Origin: Syntrophaceae bacterium UBA5761 | GTDB taxonomy: Bacteria > Desulfobacterota > Syntrophia > Syntrophales > UBA4778 | Direction: 5' to 3' | DNA length: 22,961 nt | Assembly: GCA_002418885.1 (NCBI GenBank) | Contig: DIEZ01000051.1 | Span: 25,172 to 48,132 of the forward strand | Part shown: positions 2,400 through 22,961 of the stretch, in pieces | Layout of the letters: every line of letters begins with the position of its first letter | How positions within the stretch are numbered: position 1 is the stretch's first letter | Notes under the pieces: generated by a model | What the model was told of the DNA's origin: nothing | What the model saw: only the letters and a program-made list of their open reading frames with translations | Databases searched by the model: none | Program-made: the position numbers and the translations under genes

Positions 2400-3515
2400 G
2401 TGGGTTCTTGGGATTACCAGAAAGACATATCAGGTTGCGGACTTTCGGGTCTGATCAACAAAAAGGGAGAGAGGGTGAGCGGCGAGTTGATTGCCCGCTC
2501 CATCGCGACGCAGCATGACCGCGGCAACGGACTCGGCGGGGGTTTTGCGGCTTACGGGATATACCCGGAGTTCAAGGATCACTATGCCCTCCATGTGATG
2601 TGCGACGACAGGCGGGCCCTTGCGGAAGCCGAGAAATTCCTCAAGGACTCGGTCTACGTGACACACGAGGAGAGAATCCCCACGAGGCCGAACCGGAAGA
2701 TCATCAACGTGCCGATCCTGAAGCGCTATTTCGTCAAGCCCCGGGCGGAGACGGAAGGGACGACTTTCGACAAGGGGTTGAGCGAAGACGACTTTATGGT
2801 ACAGGTCGTGATGAGGGTCAACATGGATATAGCGGGGGCGTTCGTCTTCTCCAGCGGGAAGAACATGGGCGCCTTCAAGGGTGTCGGTTATCCGGAGGAT
2901 ATCGCCGATTTCTACCGCCTCGATGAATACTCGGGCTATCTCTGGACGGCCCACAACCGTTTTCCCACCAACACACCGGGCTGGTGGGGAGGGGCACACC
3001 CCTTTACGATCCTGGACTGGTCGATCGTCCATAACGGCGAGATCTCCTCTTACGGGATAAACAAACGCTACCTGGAGATGTTCGGCTACCACTGCACGCT
3101 CCTGACGGACACGGAGGTGGTGGCCTACCTTCTCGACCTCCTGGTCAGGAAGAACGGCCTGCCCATCGACCTGGCCTGCCTCGCCCTTGCGCCGCCTTTC
3201 TGGGAGGAGATCGACCGAATGGACGAGGGGAGGCAGAGGCTATGCAGGGCCGTCCGGATGGTCTACGGAAGCGCCCTTCTCAACGGCCCTTTTGCCGTCC
3301 TCTTTGCCCACAACGGGGGGCTTGTGGGGCTCAACGATCGGATAAAGCTCCGCCCCCTCGTGGCGGCGACGAAGAATGATACGGTTTACATGGCAAGCGA
3401 AGAGTCCGCCATCAGGGAGATCTGCCCGGACCCGGACCGTGTCTGGGCGCCGAAGGCAGGCGAGCCCGTGATAGCGGAACTGGAAAATAGAGATGGAGGT
3501 TGTTATGGAGATTGA
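2400..3515 (+). CDS. Class II glutamine amidotransferase, glutamate synthase domain 1 (GlxB/archaeal GltA-like)
   Basis: This 371-residue N-terminal-nucleophile glutaminase releases ammonia from glutamine for glutamate synthase. The likely start is GTG 2400, preceded by AGGAG about seven bases upstream. The family nucleophile is the N-terminal cysteine. Here Cys13, in ISGCGLSGL, aligns with it, so a 12-residue leader would have to be removed, as in PurF. Other family landmarks are the [18 protein letters not shown] segment, the [10 protein letters not shown] loop and [11 protein letters not shown]. The coding region overlaps the start of the GXGXG gene by 11 bases, which suggests coupled translation. 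In conventional bacterial glutamate synthase this domain is fused to the FMN domain; here it is separate, as in archaea and some anaerobic bacteria. Confidence 0.88.
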
Positions 3516-4245
3516 CGCCAGGGGGGTCCATTACAGAGATCTGAACAAGATGATCCGCGAGGCCGTGGCGGAGGGCGAGCGTCGTTTCGTCTTGAAAAAC
3601 GTCAACGGCCAGCGTTACATAGCCGACGGGATCGGGGAAAAGGTCAAGATCGACGTCTACGGCACACCCGGTCAGGATATGGGCGCCTTCATGAAAGGCC
3701 CCGAAATCATCGTCCACGGAAATGCCCAGGACGGCGTGGGCAATACGATGGATGAAGGCAGGGTCGCCGTCGAAGGTATGGCGGGCGACATCGTCGGCTA
3801 CGGCATGAGGGGGGGAAGTATTTATGTCCTGGGCGATGTCGGTTATCGTGTGGGGATACACATGAAGGCATACAGGGACAAAATCCCGGTCATCGTCGTC
3901 GGGGGCAAGGCGGGGGACTTCTTGGGTGAGTACATGGCCGGCGGCGTCATCATCCTCCTCGGTATGTTCGGGGAGGACAGGAACGGCAATCCGCCGGCGG
4001 GCCATTTTCTCGGGACAGGGATGCACGGGGGTACGATCTTCGTCCGCAAGGGAGTGGATGAGCACAGGCTTGGAAGGGGCCTTAAAGCCGTCGAGGTATC
4101 TCCTGACGACATGGAGACCATCAAACCTTACCTGAAGGAGTTTGCCCGGACCTTCGGTCTCGGACTTAAGGAAATCCTTGGTGAGCGATTCTACAAGATA
4201 GTTCCGGAAACCCACAGGCCGTACGGGAATATGTATGCCTATTAG
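3505..4245 (+). CDS. Glutamate synthase GXGXG-domain subunit (GltB domain 3/GlxC-like)
   Basis: This 246-residue protein is a right-handed beta-helix of the GXGXG family, the structural third domain of glutamate synthase large subunits. The repeated glycine turns are clear: [66 protein letters not shown] chose ATG 3505 because GGAGG lies six bases upstream, inside the end of the preceding gene; ATG 3493 would add four residues. Known family members hold the glutaminase and synthase sites together rather than carrying a catalytic residue themselves. It completes the split enzyme encoded with the genes at 3-575 and 2400-3515. A 44-bp gap separates it from hisH, the widest gap since the glutamate synthase flavoprotein gene apart from the 62-86 bp before the ferredoxin. 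Confidence 0.9.
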
Positions 4246-10067: not shown

Positions 10068-11509
10068 GCGCTCTGAAGAACAGGGATGACGGGATGGAGC
10101 GAAGGTTTGTTCTGTGCAGTGATGGCGGTGGGCCGCGGGAGTCCTGCGGCGTTTTCGGGGTTTACGGCCACGAGGAGGCGGCCAAACTCGTCTATTTCGG
10201 CCTCTATGCCCTTCAGCACCGGGGGCAGGAAAGCGCCGGGATCGTCTCTTCCACCGGGAAGGCCGTGTACGAGCACAAGCAGATGGGGCTCGTGACGGAA
10301 GTCTTCAACGAGGACATTCTGAACAGGTTGACCGGCAGGATGGCCATGGGCCACGTCCGGTATTCCACCACCGGCTCCTCGGTCCTGAAGAACGCCCAGC
10401 CTTTCGTCGTTCACCATTCGGGGAAGACGATCGCGATCGGACACAACGGCAACCTCGTCAACTCCCAGAGGTTGCGGCGCGAACTGGAGGAAGAGGGCTC
10501 CATATTCCAGACGACGATGGACAGCGAGATCATCGTCCACCTGATCGCGCGTAACCTCCGGCATGGGATGGAAGAGGCCGTCGTAAGAGCCATGGCGCAG
10601 ATAAAGGGGGCCTATTCCTGCGTCCTGATGACGGAGGGTGAGATCATCGCCATCCGCGACCCGAACGGCTGGCGGCCCCTGTGCCTGGGAAGGCTCGATG
10701 ACGCCTATGTCGTCGCCTCCGAGACCTGCGCCCTCGACCTGATTGACGCGGAATACGTAAGAGACGTCGAACCGGGGGAAATCGTCGTCATCGACGAGAA
10801 GGGTCTTAAGTCTCTCAAGCCCTTCCCCAAGGTAAGGAGAAGCTTCTGCATCTTCGAATTCATCTACTTTGCGAGGCCGGACAGCGACATCTTCGGTCGG
10901 AACGTTTATGCCGTCCGGAAGCGGCTCGGGAAGTCCCTGGCCAAGGAATATCCCCTCGAGGCCGACTTTGCGATGCCGCTTCCCGACTCGGGAAATTATG
11001 CGGCCATCGGATACAGTCAGGCTTCTGGTATCCCGCTTGAGATGGGCATGATCCGCAATCATTACGTCGGCAGGACATTCATCGCACCTTCCCAGTCCAT
11101 GCGGGATTTCGGGGTACGGGTCAAGCTCAACCCCGTGAGGGGCCTCTTCAAGGACAAGCGCGTGGTGATCGTGGAAGACTCGATCATCAGGGGAACCACG
11201 TGCAGGATGCGAATCAAAGCCCTGCGGAAGACGGGCGTCGGTGAGGTCCACATGATGGTGAGTTGCCCGCCCCATAGGTATCCTTGCTATTACGGGATAG
11301 ATTTTTCGACCAAGGGTGAACTGATCGCCTGCGGGCATTCCGTTGAGGAGATAAGGAACTACATCGGCGTCGACAGCCTGTGCTATCTCAGCATGGAGGG
11401 TATGGTCGAGGCGACGGGCATCCCGGCGGAAGATTTCTGCCTCGCCTGCTTTGACGGCAAGTACCCGGTTCCCCCCGAGGATGACTTCTCGAAAAAGTGC
11501 CTGGAGTAA
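10064..11509 (+). CDS. purF: Amidophosphoribosyltransferase (Fe-S type)
   Basis: This 481-residue enzyme makes phosphoribosylamine from PRPP and glutamine, the first step of purine synthesis. ATG 10064 overlaps the carB stop in an ATGA; a GTG at 10055 would add three residues. A 27-residue propeptide precedes the class II nucleophile, Cys28 in [12 protein letters not shown]. The PRPP-binding motif is [13 protein letters not shown]. Cys262, Cys408, Cys459 and Cys462 ([28 protein letters not shown]) match by eye the four [4Fe-4S] ligands of the Bacillus-type enzyme. The protein should therefore be processed, cluster-bearing and oxygen-sensitive, which fits an anaerobe. It lies 13 bp upstream of the NifA-like regulator gene, in the same likely transcript. 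Confidence 0.96.
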
Positions 11510-11522
11510 TGAGGTATCGCTC

Positions 11523-13055
11523 ATGCCGCCGACGAACATAGAAGAACTCCGACTACTATTTGCCGTCAGCCGGGCTCTCGGTGAGGGCAGCGACCTGAAG
11601 ACGACGCTCTACATGGTCCTGGATATTCTCTCCACGTCTTTGGGGATGATACGGGGAACCGTTACGATCCTGAACCCGCTGAGGGACGAGATCTCCATCG
11701 AGGTCGCCCATGGCCTTTCGAAGAGCGCGATTGAGCGGGGCAAGTACAAGGTAGGAGAAGGTGTGACGGGGAAGGTTATCGAGACGGGGACCCCTTTTAG
11801 CGTGCCGAAGATAAGCAAGGAGCCTCTCTTCTTGAACCGGACGGCAACGAGGAGGAGGTCGGAAACCGAAAAAGAGCTCTCCTTCATCTGTGTCCCCATC
11901 AAAAAGGGGACCCAGGTCGTCGGTGCGTTGAGCGTGGACCGTCCCTATGACGAGTCCTATTCGCTGGAAGAGGGGGAGGGGCTTCTGTCGATCGTCGCCG
12001 CCATGATCGCCCAGCATGTCATCAACCTGGAGACCGTCTATTTTGAGCAGGAGCAGCTTCGGCAGGAGAACCAGCGGCTGCGGGAAGAGCTTACGCGAAA
12101 GTACCGCATCACGAACATCATCGGGAACAGCAACAAGATGAAAGACGTCTTCCAGATGATTTCCCAGGTCTCGCGGAGCAACGCCACCGTGCTGATCCGC
12201 GGGGAAAGCGGCACAGGCAAGGAACTCGTGGCGAGCGCCATCCATTATGCGGGCGTCCGGGCGAAGAATCCCTTCGTCAAGGTGAATTGCGCGGCCATAC
12301 CCGCAAACCTCATCGAAAGCGAGATGTTCGGCCACGAGAGGGGTGCCTTCACCGGAGCCATCCGCCAGAAAGTCGGAAAATTCGAGATGGCCGACAGGGG
12401 GACCATCTTTCTCGATGAGATAGGGGCCGTCAGCATGGAGGTGCAGGCCAAGCTGCTCAGGGTCATCCAGGAAAAGGAGTTCGAGCGCGTCGGCGGGACG
12501 AAGACGATAAAGTCCGACGTCCGTATAATAGCCGCGACCAACAAGAATCTCGAGGAGGCCGTCGAGAAGGGCGAGTTTCGCGAAGACCTCTACTACCGGC
12601 TGAACGTCTTCCCGATCTACCTTCCTCCCCTCAGGGAAAGGAGGACCGACATCCTCCTGCTGGCGGATTACTTTCTGGAGAAGTATGCAGCGGAGAACAG
12701 GAAAGACATAGGCAGTTTCTCTAAGACAACCGTCGACATGCTGATGAACTACCACTGGCCGGGTAACGTCCGTGAACTCGAGAACTGCATCGAACGTGCT
12801 GTCCTGCTGTGCGAGGAGGGCGTGATCCAGGGCTACCATCTGCCTCCTTCGATCCAGGCGGTCAAGGAAACGGACCTCTCACCCGGGACGTCTCTGGAGG
12901 ATGCCGTGGAGAACATAGAGCGAGACCGGATGGTCGATGCCCTGAAGAGTACCCGCGGCAACATGGCCAAGGCAGCCAAGATCGTCGGGCTCACGGAAAG
13001 AAGGTTCGCCTACAGGGCCAAGAAGTACGGGATCGATTTCCGCTGGTACAGGTAG
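11523..13055 (+). CDS. nifA: NifA-like sigma-54-dependent transcriptional activator (GAF-AAA+-Fis)
   Basis: This 510-residue enhancer-binding protein starts at ATG 11523 with a GAGG motif upstream. A GAF sensor domain covers about residues 15-170, followed by a coiled-coil-like stretch (EQEQLRQENQRLREEL). The AAA+ domain spans about 195-430, with Walker A GESGTGKE (227-234), the sigma-54 contact loop GAFTGA (274-279), Walker B TIFLDEI and the arginine segment FREDLYYRLNVFP. The C-terminal Fis-type helix-turn-helix is at 466-505. The GAF-AAA-Fis order and close similarity in style to NifA support that name, but no nif genes are in the window, and the role could be general ammonium control. It precedes a -24/-12 promoter and an Amt-PII cluster, which are plausible targets. 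The clustered cysteines of oxygen-sensitive NifA are not evident. Confidence 0.85.
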   Translation: MPPTNIEELRLLFAVSRALGEGSDLKTTLYMVLDILSTSLGMIRGTVTILNPLRDEISIEVAHGLSKSAIERGKYKVGEGVTGKVIETGTPFSVPKISKEPLFLNRTATRRRSETEKELSFICVPIKKGTQVVGALSVDRPYDESYSLEEGEGLLSIVAAMIAQHVINLETVYFEQEQLRQENQRLREELTRKYRITNIIGNSNKMKDVFQMISQVSRSNATVLIRGESGTGKELVASAIHYAGVRAKNPFVKVNCAAIPANLIESEMFGHERGAFTGAIRQKVGKFEMADRGTIFLDEIGAVSMEVQAKLLRVIQEKEFERVGGTKTIKSDVRIIAATNKNLEEAVEKGEFREDLYYRLNVFPIYLPPLRERRTDILLLADYFLEKYAAENRKDIGSFSKTTVDMLMNYHWPGNVRELENCIERAVLLCEEGVIQGYHLPPSIQAVKETDLSPGTSLEDAVENIERDRMVDALKSTRGNMAKAAKIVGLTERRFAYRAKKYGIDFRWYR

Positions 13056-13393
13056 GGCAGGCGCCGGAGGCCTCAGGTTCGGTTCGAAGGAAGGATGCAG
13101 CCAAATCATCTTGGCGTGTGTATCCCATCTATGATGACATTAATGTGGTTTATTTATTCTAATACAACATTATTGTAATATATAACTCTTCGTTTTCCCG
13201 CCTGTCTCAACAATCTTCAATAAAATCAAATCGTTATATGCCACATCCTTCTTGGCATCGCAATTGCTCTTCCTTGAGAGTAACGGTACCGTAGATTCAC
13301 CTTGTGTAGTGTGTAGAAGAATTTTGATCAGGGGTAACTTGCATAATCCTACACCATCAATTTTTCATAGGGAAAATATGGAGGAGGTACTAT
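13056..13393 (+). other. Gene-free leader region between the NifA-like gene and the ammonium cluster
   Basis: These 338 bases carry no supported gene. The first 60 or so are GC-rich read-out of the upstream gene. The stretch at about 13130-13240 is AT-rich and includes a small inverted repeat, TACAA-CATTA-TTGTA (13163-13177), which could be a protein site but is too short to assign. The -24/-12 promoter lies at 13253-13268. A GGAGGAGG ribosome site at about 13379-13386 serves the next gene. I saw no TGT-N10-ACA NifA enhancer upstream of the promoter. Confidence 0.6.
13253..13268 (+). promoter_or_regulatory. Sigma-54 (-24/-12) promoter for the outer-membrane protein-amt-PII cluster
   Basis: The 16-base site TGGCATCGCAATTGCT fits the sigma-54 consensus TGGCAC-R-N4-TTGCW. 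Only the sixth and seventh bases differ, and the GG/GC doublets have the correct spacing. It lies about 125 bases upstream of the outer-membrane protein start and directly downstream of a gene for a sigma-54 activator. Transcription would begin near 13279, giving a leader of about 115 bases. The match is seen; regulation by the neighbouring activator is inferred. Confidence 0.7.
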
Positions 13394-16710: not shown

Positions 16711-16916
16711 GGAAAAGGAGGACCGACATCCTTCTGTCGGTGGACTATTTCCTGGAGAAGTATGCCGTGGAGAACATAGAGCGAGACCGGATGGTCGATG
16801 CCCTGAAGAGTACCCGCGGCAACATGGCCAAGGCAGCCAAGATCGTCGGGCTCACGGAAAGAAGGTTCGCCTACAGGGCCAGGAAGTACGGGATCGATTT
16901 CCGCTGGTACAGGTAG
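16711..16916 (+). pseudogene. Truncated, internally deleted copy of the NifA-like regulator 3' end
   Basis: This fragment repeats the end of the gene at 11523-13055 but lacks its first 370 or so codons. It also has an in-frame internal deletion of 72 codons. The left part (16711-16761) corresponds to the segment coding RRTDILLLADYFLEKY and differs at roughly one base in seven or eight. From 16762 to the stop, 155 bases match 12901-13055 with a single A-to-G change (a Lys to Arg codon). The join falls on a shared ATGC. Similarity continues about 20 bases past the stop. The remaining frame (GTG 16689 to 16916, 75 codons) would encode little more than the Fis-type helix-turn-helix. Expression is possible but I see no good promoter, so I treat it as a relic. 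Confidence 0.8.
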
Positions 16917-17032
16917 GTCGAGCGCCGGAGGTCAGGCATCAGGGACAATGGTGTCGGCATCCCCGCCGATGCGGTATCGATACCGACGGATACGAATAGT
17001 GCCATGCAGAGATTTCCTTCCGCGGTTTCGTG

Positions 17033-18265
17033 TCATCCGTCCAGGGGACTCTTGACCCCCAGACGGTTCCTTGTGGCCACATGGGTGTATATCATCGTGG
17101 TCTGGACGTTGCTGTGGCCGAGCAGTTCCTGGATCGTCCGGATGTCGTAACCCTTCTCCAGCAGGTGGGTGGCAAAACTGTGTCTTAGGGTATGCACCGT
17201 AACCCGCTTTGAGAGCCCAGCCTTTTCGGCAGCAGCCTTAACCGCCTTTTGGAGCGTGTTGAGGTGAACGTGATGGCGGCGTATTACCCTCGCGCGCGGA
17301 TCAACGGAAAGGTCCCTTGAAGGGAACACCCAGTACCAGACCCACTCCTTGCCGGCGTTGGGGTATTTCCTCGAGAGGGCGTCCGGAAGAACGACACCGT
17401 CAACCCCGCTCGATACATCCTTCTCGTGTAGGTCCCTGACATGCTCCAAGTGTTCCCGCAGCTTTTCCTTGATGCTTTCGGGGAGCACCGTCATCCTGTC
17501 TTTGTCTCCCTTTCCTGCCCTCACCGTAAGATAGCCCTGTTCGAAATCGATGTCCTTTATCCTTAGCCTGATGCACTCACTCACCCTCAGTCCGCACCCG
17601 TAAGCAAGCTCTGCCATGAGCCTGACTGTGCCTTCCATCTGGTCAAGGAGCCTCAGCACCTCCTGCTTTGTGAGCACTACCGGCAGTCTTCTCCGCCTCT
17701 TGACGCGAACGGCTTCACTGAGGTCATGAATCTCTTTATTGACTACATTGCGGTAGAAAAAGAGTATGGCGTTGAATGCCTGGTGTTGTGTTGCCGCCGA
17801 AACCTTCCGCTCCACGGCCAGGTGGGAAAGGTAGTCACTGACATGGGAACTTTCAAGCTCCGAAGGATGCGCGCCCTTAAGGAACCGATAGAAGTCCCGC
17901 ACCCAACCCAGATAGGTCTTCTCTGTACTTAGGGAGCGATGCTTCAGCCTCAGTATGCGAACCAATTCTTCTTCCAGTCTTTCCCATTCCTCGGCCGTCT
18001 CCTGAGTTGAAGGGGCGTCATCCGAGGAAGCCTTGCCGAGGAAGTAACGGTACAGGTCAATGGCCTCCTTTGCCTGCTTGACCTGCCAATCCTCATGACT
18101 CTTGCCCATCTCTTTGAGGAAATACTCAACCTGTTCCTTGGTGAAAATCTGACCCGCTTTTATCCCGCAGAAGTTCTGAAACCTTGATACCCAGTTGATA
18201 AAGTAGGGGAGTCTTTTCTCCGGCGCCAACTTTTTTCCCAGGAGGAACTCCTTGAAGGTCTGCAT
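17033..18265 (-). CDS. intI: Integron integrase IntI (tyrosine recombinase), N-terminally extended
   Basis: This 410-residue site-specific recombinase inserts and excises gene cassettes. The catalytic residues are Arg227 ([13 protein letters not shown]), a Lys in GKGDKDR (252-257), His358 and Arg361 ([12 protein letters not shown]), His384 (LLGHSN) and the nucleophile Tyr393 (MIYTHV). The integron-specific insert lies at about 293-316 ([20 protein letters not shown], then VFPS), which separates IntI from XerC/D. The core-binding domain is at about 95-185. Residues 1-80 are an extra region that looks like a partial second SAM-like domain; IntI1 has about 337 residues. AGGAGA lies five bases before the ATG. 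The gene points away from the cassette array with its 5' end nearest attI, the classic layout. No LexA box was seen upstream. All catalytic residues are present, so it is probably active. Confidence 0.95.
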
Positions 18266-18529
18266 GATAATCTCCTATCCTATGTAATACTTAGTTTCTA
18301 TATAACATCATTCATTGAATTACAAATGATAATATGCCTGGAGCAATTACCAGATTTTGATTATCATGCATCACCTTAGCCCTTTGATGCCTTTAAAACT
18401 TGCCATATAATTCTCGAGACATATCCATATAGTACTTTTGAAAATGCTTGACAAGCATGAGAATCTCACCTACGGTTGCTGTGTAAGGCATAGAAGTCAA
18501 TGGAATATTAGAAACATATAATGTTAGCG
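18266..18529. other. attI recombination region with the intI and cassette promoters
   Basis: This AT-rich stretch of about 260 bases lies between the intI start and the first cassette. The recombination point is the core site GTTAGCG at 18523-18529, where the first cassette joins. Accessory integrase-binding sites cannot be picked out by eye. No protein-coding gene is supported here: the short frames run into the repeat. The limits of attI are an inference from integron architecture. Confidence 0.7.
18448..18476 (+). promoter_or_regulatory. Candidate cassette promoter (Pc)
   Basis: A perfect -35 hexamer TTGACA (18448-18453) stands 17 bases before a weak -10, TACGGT (18471-18476), reading into the cassette array. 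A second possibility is the perfect -10 TATAAT at 18517-18522, which directly abuts the attI core site but has only a poor -35. Integrons usually drive their first cassettes from such a promoter. Which element is used is not decidable by eye. Confidence 0.4.
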
Positions 18530-18721
18530 CCGCGCTGCGCGCGTCGCTAACGCGGAGTTGAGCGTAAGGCCCGCTCTCACGACTTTGTTTTTCATCTCCG
18601 ATGAAAACGCTCCGCGCGCTGACTCGCGCGTCGCTAACAAAGTCGTTCGAGCGTCGGCACTGCACCTGCAACGAAAGCCTTCGGCTTTCAGCAGGCGCGC
18701 TCCGACGCTCAACTCCGCGTT
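18523..18721 (+). repeat. 199-bp perfect direct repeat, copy 1: gene-less integron cassette
   Basis: The 199 bases are identical to 19562-19760, and both copies run exactly from core site to core site. The unit is thus a 196-bp cassette with almost nothing but recombination and hairpin sequence. Internal structure includes the inverted pair AACGCGGAGTTGAGCG (18549-18564) and CGCTCAACTCCGCGTT (18706-18721), a 10-bp pair CGACTTTGTT/AACAAAGTCG (18580-18589 and 18636-18645), and a hairpin TTTTCATC-TCC-GATGAAAA (18589-18607). The attC proper is near the 3' end. The unit encodes no convincing protein. Confidence 0.9.
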
Positions 18722-18725
18722 AAGC
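18632..18725 (+). other. attC site of gene-less cassette 1
   Basis: The inverse core CGCTAAC (18632-18638) and the core GTTAAGC (18719-18725) bound a 94-bp foldable site. Nested stems are GAGCGTCGG/CCGACGCTC (18649-18657 with 18702-18710), CCTGC/GCAGG and GAAAGCC/GGCTTTC, with unmatched bases between core and stem as in known attC sites. A second CGCTAAC at 18545-18551 could serve as a more distant inverse core, giving a 181-bp alternative that pairs too perfectly to resemble a normal attC. Confidence 0.8.
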
Positions 18726-18741
18726 CCTAGAAAGAAAACAT

Positions 18742-19497
18742 ATGAAGAAAAGCAAAAGCAATCGTTTTGGGCTCGCCCGAGAAATTCCTGAACCAATCCG
18801 TCGAGAAATAAGAAAACGAAGCGGATTCGGCTGTGTGGTCTGCGGAGGAGCCATTATCGAGTACCACCACTTTAACCCACCTTTTTCCGAAGCACTAACA
18901 CATACAGCCGAAGGTATTACAGCTCTCTGCCCTTCGTGCCACACAAAGGTCACCAGCGGCCGAATATCATTTTCTGCACTCCTTCAGGCAGTTGAGCACC
19001 CAAGCACATATCAGATTGGATTTTCGTCCGACAATCTCGAGGCTAGAGGTTTCCCTACAGTGGTGTTGGGTGGCCTAACCATCCAATCAACACCGATAAT
19101 TCTTGAAGTGGCTGGTCGCACATTATTGGGTTTCAGCCAACCGGAGTCACCCAACGCCCCTTTTGGTCTCAACGCTCTCTTTTGTGACAAGAACGGCAAG
19201 CCTATCGCAGAAATAGTCGAGAATCAATGGCGAGCCTTTGTCCACAATTGGGACGTAGATACCGTTGGCCTTCGAACTACCATACGTGGTGCTTATCGTG
19301 ACATTGCCCTTATCTTCCGGACTGAACCACCTTCGAAGATCGTTGTCGAGCGTATCCACATGTTCTTCAAGGGTCTACGAATAGAGGGTCAAGAAGGTTC
19401 GCATTTATCAACCTATTTGCCAAATGGTGATCTGTGGTTTCGGGCAACTAACACAGCATCAATAATCGGTTGTGCCAAAGGAATCGTCTTTAATTGA
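18742..19497 (+). CDS. HNH-endonuclease-like cassette protein with an unknown C-terminal domain
   Basis: This 251-residue protein has an HNH/zinc module at its N-terminus: Cys31 and Cys34 (CVVC), His42-His43 (EYHHFNPP), and Cys63, Cys66 and His67 (CPSCH). This arrangement is typical of HNH nucleases with a structural zinc. Residues 80-251 form a separate part rich in predicted beta strands, with GLNALFCDKNGKPIAEIVEN and RIHMFFKGLRIEG segments; I do not recognise it as a named domain. No signal peptide or membrane segment is seen. The ATG at 18742 lies 21 bases after the cassette core site, with only a weak purine-rich ribosome site. The stop is 7 bases before its attC. A DNA-cutting role is likely; involvement in phage defence is inference from the module and from the neighbouring cassettes. 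Confidence 0.8.
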   Translation: MKKSKSNRFGLAREIPEPIRREIRKRSGFGCVVCGGAIIEYHHFNPPFSEALTHTAEGITALCPSCHTKVTSGRISFSALLQAVEHPSTYQIGFSSDNLEARGFPTVVLGGLTIQSTPIILEVAGRTLLGFSQPESPNAPFGLNALFCDKNGKPIAEIVENQWRAFVHNWDVDTVGLRTTIRGAYRDIALIFRTEPPSKIVVERIHMFFKGLRIEGQEGSHLSTYLPNGDLWFRATNTASIIGCAKGIVFN

Positions 19498-19504
19498 CAA
19501 TTCG

Positions 19505-19568
19505 GCTTAACAAGTCTCTGCTGCGGAACCCGCAAACGGCGCGGGTCACGCAGAGCTTTACGTTAGCG
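19505..19568 (+). other. attC site of the HNH cassette
   Basis: The inverse core GCTTAAC (19505-19511) and core GTTAGCG (19562-19568) bound 64 bp. AAG-T-CTCTGC pairs with GCAGAGCTT, leaving one extrahelical T, and CCCGC pairs with GCGGG at the tip. The extrahelical base is the feature integrases use to choose the strand. The inverse core is the exact reverse complement of the cassette's own leading core at 18719. Confidence 0.88.
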
Positions 19569-19760
19569 CCGCGCTGCGCGCGTCGCTAACGCGGAGTTGA
19601 GCGTAAGGCCCGCTCTCACGACTTTGTTTTTCATCTCCGATGAAAACGCTCCGCGCGCTGACTCGCGCGTCGCTAACAAAGTCGTTCGAGCGTCGGCACT
19701 GCACCTGCAACGAAAGCCTTCGGCTTTCAGCAGGCGCGCTCCGACGCTCAACTCCGCGTT
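19562..19760 (+). repeat. 199-bp perfect direct repeat, copy 2: gene-less integron cassette
   Basis: These bases are identical to 18523-18721, base for base on reading. The copy occupies a full cassette slot between the HNH and nuclease cassettes. Only the base after the closing core TT differs (A in copy 1, G in copy 2), because that base belongs to the next cassette. Two separate insertions or a duplication of one short cassette would both explain it. Confidence 0.9.
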
Positions 19761-19764
19761 GGGC
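19671..19764 (+). other. attC site of gene-less cassette 2
   Basis: This is the same 94-bp attC structure as in the first copy, ending in the core GTTGGGC (19758-19764) that leads the next cassette. The inverse core is CGCTAAC at 19671-19677. The nested stems are unchanged. Confidence 0.8.
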
Positions 19765-19779
19765 GGGAGGAGATGAGAC

Positions 19780-20880
19780 ATGGCACTATGGAAGATCACA
19801 GACAAGGGACCGTCTCCCGTCAAGGAGACAAAGTTCAAAGACGAGAAACTGCTTGAGGAGCATCTTGAGGACTGGATAGCCGCCAAACCGATGCTTCTCG
19901 GGGAACCTCTCCTGATTTTCGGACGCCAGGTCCAAATACCGGATACGAAGGACCGTCTTGACCTGCTGGCCGTAGACCCGCAGGGCATGATTGTAGTCAT
20001 CGAACTCAAGCGCGGCCACATCAAGGACCCGGTAGACATTCAGAGTCTCCGGTACGCCAGCTATCTGGCGAAGTGGCGGTTTGAGGATTTCGAGAACGTG
20101 GCGAGGAACTACTTCGGCAAAGTCGGCGATCCGGAGTTCAACTTCAACGACAGGTTCGAGTCTTTCTGTGGGGAGTCCGGCGTGGATGTGATTCCCGATC
20201 TGAACCAAGACCAGCGCATCATCATTGTTGGCTCAGCAGTGCGCGAAAAGCTGGGCAGTGTTGCCCTGTGGCTCCGCGACCACAACATAGACATCAAACT
20301 CATTGAAGTTGCCGCTTACAGGGAGGCGGATACCGTTCTGGTCGAGCCGTCAACAATTATTCCGATGCCGGTGAATCGCTTCGTTTCAGTCGGGAAGCCT
20401 GGCACAGAGGGGCAGCAGCCTTGGGGAAGCGATGGTCGTGCGTGGCACCTTGAGCGGCGGTGCAGCCCGAAGACGAAGGAGATGATCCTGACGCTGGATC
20501 AGATCCTCCAGGATGAATTTGAACTCGAAGGACCGCGGTGGAATCAGAAGTACTATATCGCCTACCCAGTCAATGGCTACAATTGGCTTTGCATCAACAC
20601 AAAACCCCGATTCCTGGTGCTGGACTTCATAGTGAAGGCAGGAGTGTTCAAGACCGACGCTCTGGCAAAGCAGCTAGGCGTTGAGGTGTTCGACATGGAC
20701 GACTCTCTGGGGGAAAAGCTGGGGATGGCCAGTTCGGTCGTCGTGAAGAATCGGAACCCATCGTCGGATCGCGTCAGGTTCAGAATGAAGGAAGACTTCG
20801 ACTTGAAGAACGCGGCGTTCAAGGATTTCCTGAAGGATGCATTCAAGGCATTCACGAAACAGGAGAGCGCCCAACAATGA
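19780..20880 (+). CDS. NucS/DUF91-like PD-(D/E)XK endonuclease cassette protein
   Basis: This 366-residue protein has an N-terminal nuclease fold. The core is Asp61 in DRLDLLAVD, Glu75 and Lys77 in VVIELKRG, and Gln88 in DIQSLRYASYL, preceded by the helix LLEEHLEDWIAAKPMLLGE. This order matches the PD-(D/E)XK nucleases of the NucS/DUF91 group. The C-terminal half (about 180-366) is unrelated to anything I recognise. It contains an YIAYPVNGYNWLCINTKPR stretch and a lysine-rich end. GGGAGGAGA lies just before ATG 19780 and immediately after the cassette core site, so the cassette brings its own ribosome site. The stop codon lies inside the cassette's attC, and the last codons are read from the inverse core. 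Cleavage of branched or foreign DNA is plausible; the actual substrate is unknown. Confidence 0.83.
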   Translation: MALWKITDKGPSPVKETKFKDEKLLEEHLEDWIAAKPMLLGEPLLIFGRQVQIPDTKDRLDLLAVDPQGMIVVIELKRGHIKDPVDIQSLRYASYLAKWRFEDFENVARNYFGKVGDPEFNFNDRFESFCGESGVDVIPDLNQDQRIIIVGSAVREKLGSVALWLRDHNIDIKLIEVAAYREADTVLVEPSTIIPMPVNRFVSVGKPGTEGQQPWGSDGRAWHLERRCSPKTKEMILTLDQILQDEFELEGPRWNQKYYIAYPVNGYNWLCINTKPRFLVLDFIVKAGVFKTDALAKQLGVEVFDMDDSLGEKLGMASSVVVKNRNPSSDRVRFRMKEDFDLKNAAFKDFLKDAFKAFTKQESAQQ

Positions 20881-20928
20881 CCTGCACGCGACGGGCTACC
20901 CGCCCGCGCGTGAGGTCAGTCGTTAGCC
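20869..20928 (+). other. attC site of the NucS-like cassette
   Basis: The inverse core GCCCAAC (20869-20875) and core GTTAGCC (20922-20928) bound 60 bp. TGACCT-g-CACGCG pairs with CGCGTG-AGGTCA, with one extrahelical G, and GGGC pairs with GCCC near the tip. The site overlaps the last four codons of the nuclease gene. Confidence 0.9.
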
Positions 20929-20938
20929 AAGGACTGAA

Positions 20939-22504
20939 ATGCTGAAATTGAAACCTTCAAGCCTAGACTGGGCATTGGAGCATGTAAACCGGTTCGACGA
21001 TACAAGCATGTTGCCCTTGCCGTTTGAGTATTCCGCAATCCAACATGTGTGGCCCGAGATCAGATCGTACCTTTCGGAACAGGATGCCTTGACCTGGAAA
21101 GTGCGTGCCCATCGCTCACTGTTGGCCCCGAAAGGCCGATATGCTTTTCGAGTAATCACGCAATTGGATCCATTGGATTTTCTCCTCTTCGCGGCCCTTA
21201 TACGTGAGGTCGCCAAAGACCTTGAAAACAATCGAGTTCCGGTAGCACATAACGTGGTCTTCTCTTATCGACTTTTGCCCAAGAAAGACGGGAAACTCTT
21301 TGATCCTCTGATCGGCTACGATCAGTTTCTTGCCCGAAGTCGGGAGTTGCTGATGGATAAGACATATACTCACGTTGCTCTTGCCGACATAGCCGACTTC
21401 TATCCCAGAATATACCATCACCGCTTACACGGCGCCCTGTCAAACGCTACGACTCTTTCTCAGCACGTAGTCGCTATCATGAGGCTTCTGTCTGGTTGGA
21501 ACGGTACGGAAACCTTCGGAATACCGGTTGGAAATGCGCCTTCGCGTGTCCTTGCCGAAGTCGCCATAGCGGACGTTGACGAGGCCCTTATGGCGAACGG
21601 GATTAATTACATCCGGTTTAATGACGATTATCGCATCTTCACAAAGACCCATGCGGAGGCATATCGTGCCTTGGCATTTCTGGCTGAGGTTCTGTATCGA
21701 AACCACGGCTTAGCGCTTCAGCCACAAAAAACGCATGTGCTTCGCGTAAAGGAGTTCCGAAAGAGATACCTCTCCTCGCCGGAGGAAAGAGAAATCGACT
21801 CTCTCTATGAGAAGGTCCAAGAACTCATTAGTGAACTCGGCCTTTCAAGCTCCTACGAGGAGATAGAGTACTCTGACTTAAACGCAGAGCAACAAGAAGT
21901 AATCAATTCTCTGAATCTGAGTGGGCTTTTACAGGAGGAATTGGATAAGGCCGACATCGATTTCGGAGTAGTGAAATTCGTTCTTAGGCGGATGGGCCAG
22001 CTTGGTGATCCGTCCCTTGTCGACGAGCTATTCAACAGTATTGACGTCCTGTATCCTGCATTTCCAGATATAATTCAGTATTTTACGAGCCTCCGGAACT
22101 TGAAGACACCGCAATACCACGACATAGGCAAACGAGTACTGGACCTTCTCGAATCATCACTGGTTAGCGAGTTGGAGTATCATCGCATCTGGGCTCTGGA
22201 CCTCTTTGCTCATACCACGCAATGGGACAACGAGGACCGCTTCTTTACAATGCTTGGCACGGCACATGATGCATTTTCCCGCAGAAAGCTAATTCTGGCG
22301 ATGGGCAGAGCACACCAGAGGCATTGGTTCCAATCGCAATGGAGAAACCTCACGAACGAGGCGCCGTGGCCAAGAAGGGCTCTCCTGGCTGGGGCAAGTT
22401 GTATGGCTGCTGATGCTCGAAAACATTGGTACAAATCCGTGTTGCCGCAACTGGACGAACTCGAAAAGGGGGTTGTGAAATGGGCAACGGCAAATCCGTT
22501 TTGA
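20939..22504 (+). CDS. Reverse transcriptase of the Abi/unknown-group (defence-type) class
   Basis: This 521-residue protein has an RNA-directed DNA polymerase domain over about residues 60-275. Motif A is ADIADFYPRIYHH (Asp150), motif B is GIPVGNAPSRVLAEV (194-208), motif C is FNDD (227-230) in RFNDDYRIF, and motif D is HGLALQPQKTHV (256-267). FNDD departs from the common YADD but keeps both catalytic aspartates. Residues 290-521 are rich in helices and resemble the HEAT-like C-terminal half of Abi and unknown-group reverse transcriptases. They end in AADARKHWYKSVLPQLDELE. There is no maturase or endonuclease domain, so it is not a group II intron protein, and I see no obvious retron RNA. 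AAGGA lies six bases before ATG 20939. Phage defence is an inference from the family. Confidence 0.88.
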   Translation: MLKLKPSSLDWALEHVNRFDDTSMLPLPFEYSAIQHVWPEIRSYLSEQDALTWKVRAHRSLLAPKGRYAFRVITQLDPLDFLLFAALIREVAKDLENNRVPVAHNVVFSYRLLPKKDGKLFDPLIGYDQFLARSRELLMDKTYTHVALADIADFYPRIYHHRLHGALSNATTLSQHVVAIMRLLSGWNGTETFGIPVGNAPSRVLAEVAIADVDEALMANGINYIRFNDDYRIFTKTHAEAYRALAFLAEVLYRNHGLALQPQKTHVLRVKEFRKRYLSSPEEREIDSLYEKVQELISELGLSSSYEEIEYSDLNAEQQEVINSLNLSGLLQEELDKADIDFGVVKFVLRRMGQLGDPSLVDELFNSIDVLYPAFPDIIQYFTSLRNLKTPQYHDIGKRVLDLLESSLVSELEYHRIWALDLFAHTTQWDNEDRFFTMLGTAHDAFSRRKLILAMGRAHQRHWFQSQWRNLTNEAPWPRRALLAGASCMAADARKHWYKSVLPQLDELEKGVVKWATANPF

Positions 22505-22511
22505 AGAACAT

Positions 22512-22577
22512 GGCTAACGAGGCGCTGAACCCAATCGTGGCCCTGGCGGGCCACTCTGGGTTAGCTTTGTGTTAGGC
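22512..22577 (+). other. attC site of the reverse transcriptase cassette
   Basis: The inverse core GGCTAAC (22512-22518) and core GTTAGGC (22571-22577) bound 66 bp. GCT-g-AACCCA pairs with TGGGTT-AGC, leaving an extrahelical G, and GTGGCCC pairs with GGGCCAC around a TGGC loop. The site begins 7 bases after the reverse transcriptase stop. Confidence 0.9.
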
Positions 22578-22612
22578 GCCTCGCGATGTAGGCAACCCGA
22601 GGCTGGCGCTCG

Positions 22613-22961
22613 ATGACAGAACCTCAATCCATAGACTTGAATCCGGAGATTCGCCGCATCGTCGATGCCGCGCGCGGTGTATGGACCCGCCGGCTCATCG
22701 ACCATTCGCGAGCGAACTCCCTCCTCTTCTACCGCGACCTCAAGGTCGGCACTCTCGACCTGACTGCGGAGACGGAGGCTGTGGGCCGTCTGCTCGCAGG
22801 CGACAAACTGACAGTTGAGTCGCTGGTCTCGGCAGGCCGGTATGCGGAGAGCCCTGACCCCGTCGTACGTACCCGGGCCGAAGCCGAGGCGCGCCAGAAA
22901 GTACGAAGCACGCTCGTAGCGCTCCAGCGCAAGGCGTTGAGCAACCTCGAGGAGAAAGGTA
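22613..22961 (+). CDS. DUF4011-type helicase-associated protein, N-terminus (3'-truncated by the window)
   Basis: An open frame from ATG 22613 runs to the window edge without a stop, giving the first 116 residues. The segment AAR-GVWTRRLIDHSRANSLLF-YRDLKVGTLDL (about 19-51) resembles the start of DUF4011 domains, which lie at the front of large superfamily 1 helicases, some with a C-terminal Vsr-like nuclease. The rest visible is a charged helical stretch (RTRAEAEARQKVRSTLVALQ). The gene begins 42 bases after the preceding core site, so it occupies the next cassette position. No clear ribosome site is visible. If the protein is as long as usual for this family, the cassette would be several kilobases. 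The helicase part is not in the window, so the assignment rests on the N-terminus only. Confidence 0.6.
   Translation, partial: MTEPQSIDLNPEIRRIVDAARGVWTRRLIDHSRANSLLFYRDLKVGTLDLTAETEAVGRLLAGDKLTVESLVSAGRYAESPDPVVRTRAEAEARQKVRSTLVALQRKALSNLEEKG

Follow-up and report, generated by a model that had tools for sequence, protein, structure and literature searches.

Does the cassette array at the end of a contig from Syntrophaceae bacterium UBA5761 store anti-phage defences as separately movable genes, or is it an ordinary integron in which a few nucleic-acid enzymes have met by chance? The stretch analyzed here, referred to as the window, comprises 22,961 nucleotides and corresponds to positions 25172-48132 of contig DIEZ01000051.1. 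A preliminary description had proposed a defence island whose coding cassettes all encode nucleic-acid enzymes. Sequence comparisons indicate that the array is the integrase-proximal end of an integron with one cassette for a reverse transcriptase (RT) of the Drt8 family and another for a predicted nuclease that matches the candidate family PDC-S11, and that it is probably a bank in which each anti-phage defence is a single gene able to move separately. It is read as a likely small defence store because the RT belongs to a family known for anti-phage defence and the nuclease matches a candidate family.

The integron proposed in the preliminary description is real. Its integrase gene, intI (17033-18265, minus strand), encodes a 410-aa protein with approximately 100 extra N-terminal residues, and residues 101-409 match TIGR02249 with 433.9 bits against a cut-off of 265 (E 3.7e-130; Pfam Phage_integrase, E 6e-46). 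The cassettes lie rightward of intI, all on the plus strand, and are accompanied by five attC sites at 18632-18725, 19505-19568, 19671-19764, 20869-20928, and 22512-22577. The attC finder is strict and overlooks some sites at other loci; it returned no site on either strand of the first 15 kb of the window (a 2 x 15 kb, that is, 30 kb control) and gave five hits when 61 loci were searched on their integrase side (289,656 bases in all). The folding energies of single attC sites fall below those of shuffled sequence, with z between -2.3 and -6.3. In all three complete coding cassettes, which encode an HNH-domain protein, the PDC-S11 protein, and the RT, the opening 8 nt exactly complement the left core of the cassette's own attC site, and such an 8/8 match is, in sequence terms, the mark of a closed cassette. 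A fourth coding cassette holds an unfinished open reading frame (ORF). The earlier count of four coding cassettes therefore stands, and two identical gene-less cassettes, whose starts match their own left cores at 7 of 8 positions, had been overlooked. The contig ends at 48132, the window's base 22961, so the array is incomplete on this side and unreadable beyond that point. The presumed attI region (18266-18523, no strand assigned) is the interval that separates intI from the first G^TT junction, its position suggesting its function; by eye, G006:C15, from another family of the order, has a close copy of this region ahead of the gene-less element, at a contig end where no integrase was detected.

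The RT cassette (20923-22571, attC site 22512-22577, end match 8/8) carries a 521-aa protein at 20939-22504 on the plus strand. This protein matches Drt8, a family name used here as in PADLOC, at positions 1-492 of the 493 in the profile (E 5.3e-155), and Pfam RVT_1 at E 1.6e-11. Residues D150, D229, and D230, which we take to be the catalytic aspartates of the RT motifs, are invariant across eight aligned sequences, and judging from this alignment the catalytic residues are intact. The predicted structure superposes on DRT6, DRT4, and AbiK over most of the chain, although these three are just 12-14% identical to the window RT in the fold alignments. What it shares with the helical-repeat RTs of the DRT and Abi systems (DRT8, DRT4, DRT6, AbiK, and Abi-P2) is an RT palm with catalytic aspartates and a helical C-terminal half.

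The neighboring PDC-S11 cassette (19759-20922, attC site 20869-20928, matching ends) encodes a predicted PD-(D/E)XK nuclease of 366 aa (19780-20880, plus strand). It matches the PDC-S11 profile at E 1.5e-41 and, under the Pfam cut-off, NucS_C at E 0.001. With PADLOC's PDC-S11, a NucS-like candidate for single-gene defence, it shares the N-terminal half, and the profile match does not extend into its C-terminal half. On plasmids, its five best homologues come from haloarchaea (33.7-35.3% identity over 67-74% of the chain), and PDC-S11 recurs in another array of the same order. The HNH cassette (18720-19562, attC site 19505-19568, matching ends) encodes a 251-aa protein (18742-19497, plus strand) that matches the phage family phrog_6544, of unknown function, over its length (E 1.8e-61) and Pfam HNH below the cut-off (E 0.003); a Pseudomonas luteola plasmid and a Klebsiella phage both carry homologues close to phage structural genes. 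The start of a further cassette (22572-22961, plus strand) contains the unfinished ORF (22613-22960), of which 116 residues are present. No match to this ORF was obtained in Pfam (E <= 1), PADLOC, PHROG, or plasmids, and among 297 genomes of the phylum only the ORF itself was found.

The preliminary identification of HNH, NucS-like, and RT proteins was thus recovered, the first two at sub-cut-off scores. Its assignment of the fourth protein to DUF4011 was not: no Pfam family was matched at E <= 1, no PF13195 was found in the genome, and the ORF is unlike two DUF4011 loci, which is no disproof because only 116 residues are present. That all the coding cassettes encode nucleic-acid enzymes is not established either, since the HNH protein, with its sub-cut-off Pfam score, belongs to a phage family of unknown function, and the fourth ORF is cut off and without a family. 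In the PADLOC search, two of the four coding cassettes in the visible array match defence profiles; the claim of cassette-borne defence therefore holds for the RT, tentatively for the PDC-S11 protein, and not for the HNH protein.

A scan of genome contigs placed relatives of the RT at nine loci, 46-77% identical, from Bacteroidales, Nostoc (two loci), Pyrinomonadaceae, Pseudomonadales, Poribacteria, KSB1, Aneurinibacillus, and Geothermobacter (partial). Matches at E <= 1e-40 occur in 6 of 395 genomes of the phylum and at E <= 1e-25 in 3 of 155 genomes of the class, the RT's own genome counted in both; in viral contigs, no relatives of the RT, HNH, or PDC-S11 proteins were confirmed. Drt8 is the best profile in 10 of 10 RT relatives scanned. 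Flanking attC sites were sought at 15 Drt8-type loci (the window, L003-L010, L025, L027-L029, L148, and L149), excluding L011 and L026, which hold only a partial gene. Beside the RT in five of these (the window, L029, L003, L007, and L148) are attC-like sites. In L029 (G275, from another order of the phylum), the cassette start matches the core at 8/8 and the hairpin motif of the gene-less element flanks the RT on both sides; two ORFs make up its split RT frame. L003, a contig of 4.2 kb that was assigned to Bacteroidales by binning, matches at 7/8; its closing site at 3425-3516 is weak (fold z -2.1) and is detected only at relaxed settings, which give 11 hits per 226 kb of background, and a second attC-looking site lies at 188-259. 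Its DNA is 72% like the window RT cassette over the coding sequence only, and because the likeness stops there the attC sites of the two are unrelated. A further attC-like sequence, with its right side apparently cut short, was seen by eye at L003:731-800. L007, a metagenome-assembled genome of Pseudomonadales, also matches at 7/8; the site on the RT side folds like an attC site and fails the finder cut-off, and the MAPEG gene that follows it is closed by a strict attC site at 10107-10172. In L148 (extended as L151), which comes from the window's own order, a strict attC site ends 10 nt upstream of the RT start, and no closing site was found after the RT. Of 86 control genes, three pass at 7/8, one being the MAPEG gene of L007, and none at 8/8. 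At L008, a tyrosine recombinase 32% like the window integrase is encoded approximately 7 kb from the RT.

Whether such arrays are generally defensive was addressed in the order itself. Integrase genes were found in 66 of its 149 genomes at E <= 1e-50, 58 of them above the curated cut-off, and 60 of the listed integrase places were taken, chosen for the presence of the integrase start. With the window counted, 32 of 61 arrays have at least one detected attC site or gene-less motif; these contain 123 ORFs of at least 80 residues, 114 on the plus strand, including 3 in the window. The other 111 plus-strand ORFs were compared with 111 drawn at random from 283 control ORFs on the opposite side of the integrases, a set without the window and without any ORF that reached 700 aa. 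Among the best 25 of the 82 PADLOC families matched by array ORFs at E <= 1e-8 are mad2 (5), PDC-S11 (2), PDC-S31 (2), and DitA (2), as well as HEC-05, AbiTii, AbiU, PDC-S48, a type II methyltransferase, and an effector-type HNH. The mad2 matches are probably methyltransferases, and the two PDC-S11 matches are the same cassette in two genomes. Since a single methyltransferase protein matches 41 of the 82 families and an HNH protein 16, at most approximately 26 of the 111 array ORFs match any model. For the control ORFs, the best 25 of 43 families are mainly of ATPase, helicase, RecD, DinG, and RtcR type. When 16 hand-picked cassette proteins were checked singly, eight had no match, five matched HEC-05 (over nearly its length), PDC-S48, AbiTii, PDC-S11, and a methyltransferase, and three gave weak or partial matches (DitA, RT-Protease, and a TIR effector at E 3e-6) that were not counted as defence. 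The Pfam tally for the 111 ORFs includes, among the best 25 of 62 families, methyltransferases (5), HTH (4), PIN (2), the toxins ParE (2) and HigB (2), a catalase, and a dehydrogenase. Because most cassette ORFs match no defence profile, defence genes are, as far as profiles can tell, a minority in the sister arrays. Separately, the arrays at L075 and L124 (G511 and G513) have in common a series of cassette proteins whose starts and lengths agree, including a PDC-S11 gene, suggesting that a block of the array was either exchanged recently or inherited from a common ancestor.

Several of these results weigh against reading the window as a defence bank. Most cassette ORFs of the 31 other arrays have no defence profile, and PADLOC matches control ORFs too. 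No attC site was found beside the RT in the remaining 10 of the 15 Drt8-type loci, which include both Nostoc loci and Aneurinibacillus. PDC-S11 is a candidate defence family only, matched in residues 12-197, the first half of the protein; the HNH protein has no defence profile in PADLOC (best E 0.047); and promoter-like sites in the region show no clear excess (5, against a mean of 3.2 and standard deviation of 2.1 in shuffles). One alternative is an ordinary mixed array, filled by chance accumulation, in which three nucleic-acid enzymes have come together by coincidence in a small sample, the RT being a passenger and the locus conferring no defence phenotype. Just four coding cassettes are visible, of which one belongs to no identified family and another to a phage family, and the sister arrays are mixed in Pfam content with defence families in the minority in PADLOC. 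The strong Drt8 match with its intact catalytic residues, the attC-like sites that adjoin Drt8-type genes in four further genomes, and the presence of PDC-S11 in a second array of the order argue otherwise, and we regard an ordinary array as unlikely. An RT that serves the array and not defence, for instance by making DNA that aids cassette movement, is in turn hard to credit. That 5 of 15 Drt8-type loci adjoin attC-like sites would fit this idea, as would the association of group II intron RTs, which are of another kind, with integrons reported in PMC7923331; against it, the ten other loci lack a detected attC site beside the RT, and the predicted fold is that of Abi and DRT enzymes over most of the chain.

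A different question is whether the RT is complete by itself. In PMC12596737, DRT8 is described with a PD-(D/E)XK domain, whereas none was detected by Pfam in the window RT chain, a further point against the defence-bank reading. The adjoining cassette encodes a predicted PD-(D/E)XK protein, and it is conceivable, if very unlikely, that this gene is the nuclease partner of DRT8, brought beside the RT by the integrase to form a split, two-cassette system. The two cassettes are adjacent and co-directional, with their junction at 20922/20923, and at L151 a 287-aa ORF (11328-12191) with a PD-(D/E)XK-like motif, seen by eye, overlaps the RT end. This ORF may be the partner that the same paper ascribes to DRT8. 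The RT is the first gene after an attC site, and with its overlapping ORF it may make up an entire DRT8 unit of two genes, located where an array ends. The ORF is, however, unlike PDC-S11, and neither the window nor 16 other loci gave a homologue of it at E <= 1; the window may therefore contain just one part of a DRT8 system. The pairing seen in the window also occurs in none of the nine related loci: no HNH or PDC-S11 homologue was found in their flanks (at most 8 kb, less where the contig stopped sooner, and disregarding a 19-residue HNH match in L011 at E 0.047), and joint action of the cassette genes, which had been suggested earlier, is accordingly unsupported. No nuclease was found among ten RT-neighbor proteins scanned. 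Other RT neighbors include an HNH gene two genes past the RT in L004, T5orf172 after the RT in L003, and HsdM in L009; the HNH and T5orf172 proteins are of families other than the window's HNH and PDC-S11. In Pyrinomonadaceae, the gene directly after the Drt8-family RT (L006:9600-10598) has sub-cut-off matches to a nucleoside-deoxyribosyltransferase and the 8xMP membrane domain, and its product is a possible partner of the RT in that lineage.

The gene-less cassettes add a second feature to the array. The two copies, each 196 nt on the plus strand, lie at 18524-18719 (attC site 18632-18725) and 19563-19758 (attC site 19671-19764); positions 18523-18721 and 19562-19760 are identical across 199 nt, and the identity ends there on both sides. 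The body is almost wholly an inverted repeat and is joined to an attC site, and in the hairpin the core-site arms co-vary (GTTAGCG/CGCTAAC, GTTGCCG/CGGCAAC, and GTACGG/CCGTAC). A DNA match to the element was found in 5 of 60 relatives, the window genome counted, and none among plasmids. At 8 of 61 loci, window counted, the strict hairpin motif is no more than 270 nt away from the start of the integrase (six loci offered less than 270 nt, one of them a hit), with one hit on a control side. The integrases of the order fall into length classes of 301-380 and 410-523 aa, some perhaps cut by contig ends. Among 60 integrases of at least 300 residues, all eight near a motif belong to the 34 of at least 400 residues and none to the 26 shorter ones; in this sample, the gene-less cassette is found only with the long class. 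Copies also recur within arrays: three in L097 (the first 99.5% identical to each of the others), two in L098 (99.3%), two in L091 (92%), and six in L123, mostly 97-100% identical over shared stretches, with internal deletions. The loci with a gene-less palindromic cassette also include L013 and L015, and in L123 five of the six copies come, by eye, directly after the attC-like site of a gene cassette (one by the strict finder). A search with the hairpin pattern, which does not cover the shorter hairpins of L083, L091, and L123, located it at 17 places, spread over 10 of 155 genomes from the order, with the arms pairing at 7 or 8 of 8 positions in all but one (G018). In the phylum sample, the pattern alone matches in 11 of 395 genomes, and L029 provides the hairpin outside the window's order.

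It is a possibility, offered here as a speculative one, that these gene-less cassettes form a cargo-free, integron-specific family of parasites or helpers that is positioned beside attI where the integrase is of the long class, keeps the co-varying hairpin, and can copy itself into nearly every cassette boundary, thereby setting where captured genes, the Drt8 cassettes of the window and L029 included, insert or are expressed. ORF-less gene cassettes with promoter activity are reported from Treponema in PMC6557892. The likeness is the lack of an ORF, and one cassette there, also with promoter activity, likewise holds the first position; the window's cassette differs from that account in its attC site joined to a nearly all-inverted-repeat body and in its identical repetition within the array.

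On the left of the integron, the genes are presumably those of ordinary nitrogen and nucleotide metabolism, judging from their translations. Between a glnB-like gene and intI, positions 16759-16936 duplicate the truncated end of a sigma-54-type regulator gene at 12898-13077 (96% over 180 nt), possibly a scar of the integron's arrival.

Under the favored interpretation of the array as a defence bank, the integrase would fold and recombine the bottom strands of attC sites and place cassettes near attI, where a promoter would transcribe the first of them. During infection, as its fold and published helical-repeat RTs suggest, the RT would act as an oligomer that synthesizes DNA with no ordinary template, and by analogy with related RTs this activity would halt the growth of the phage, probably with the cell itself sacrificed. 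The PDC-S11 protein is predicted to cut nucleic acid, the HNH and fourth cassettes would be cargo, and each cassette would be expected to act alone.

The idea of a defence bank is itself already known, having been published in 2025 (Darracq 2025; Getz 2025; Kieffer 2025; as presented in PMC12444791 and PMC12409362), and this array is another case. According to the latter source, protection was conferred by at least 16 of 179 cassettes in V. cholerae, where 88 unknown, non-redundant cassettes were expressed, and by 9 of the 57 that were tested in V. parahaemolyticus. Those banks, as described there, likewise hold single-gene defence cassettes with their own attC sites, whereas the window has another host lineage, an N-terminally extended integrase, and Drt8-type RT cargo. 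A narrow search, which leaves absence unproven, found no report of an integron-borne defence-associated RT cassette in the partial sources consulted. The odder features of the array are the recurrent RT cargo and the gene-less cassette. If the cassettes protect, DRT8, an RT defence whose mechanism is still open, would be repeatedly carried as an integron cassette in unrelated hosts. This would tie integron defence banks to DNA-writing immune enzymes, two recent lines of work, and would extend the bank idea beyond Vibrio and mobile integrons to an environmental order rich in integrase genes.
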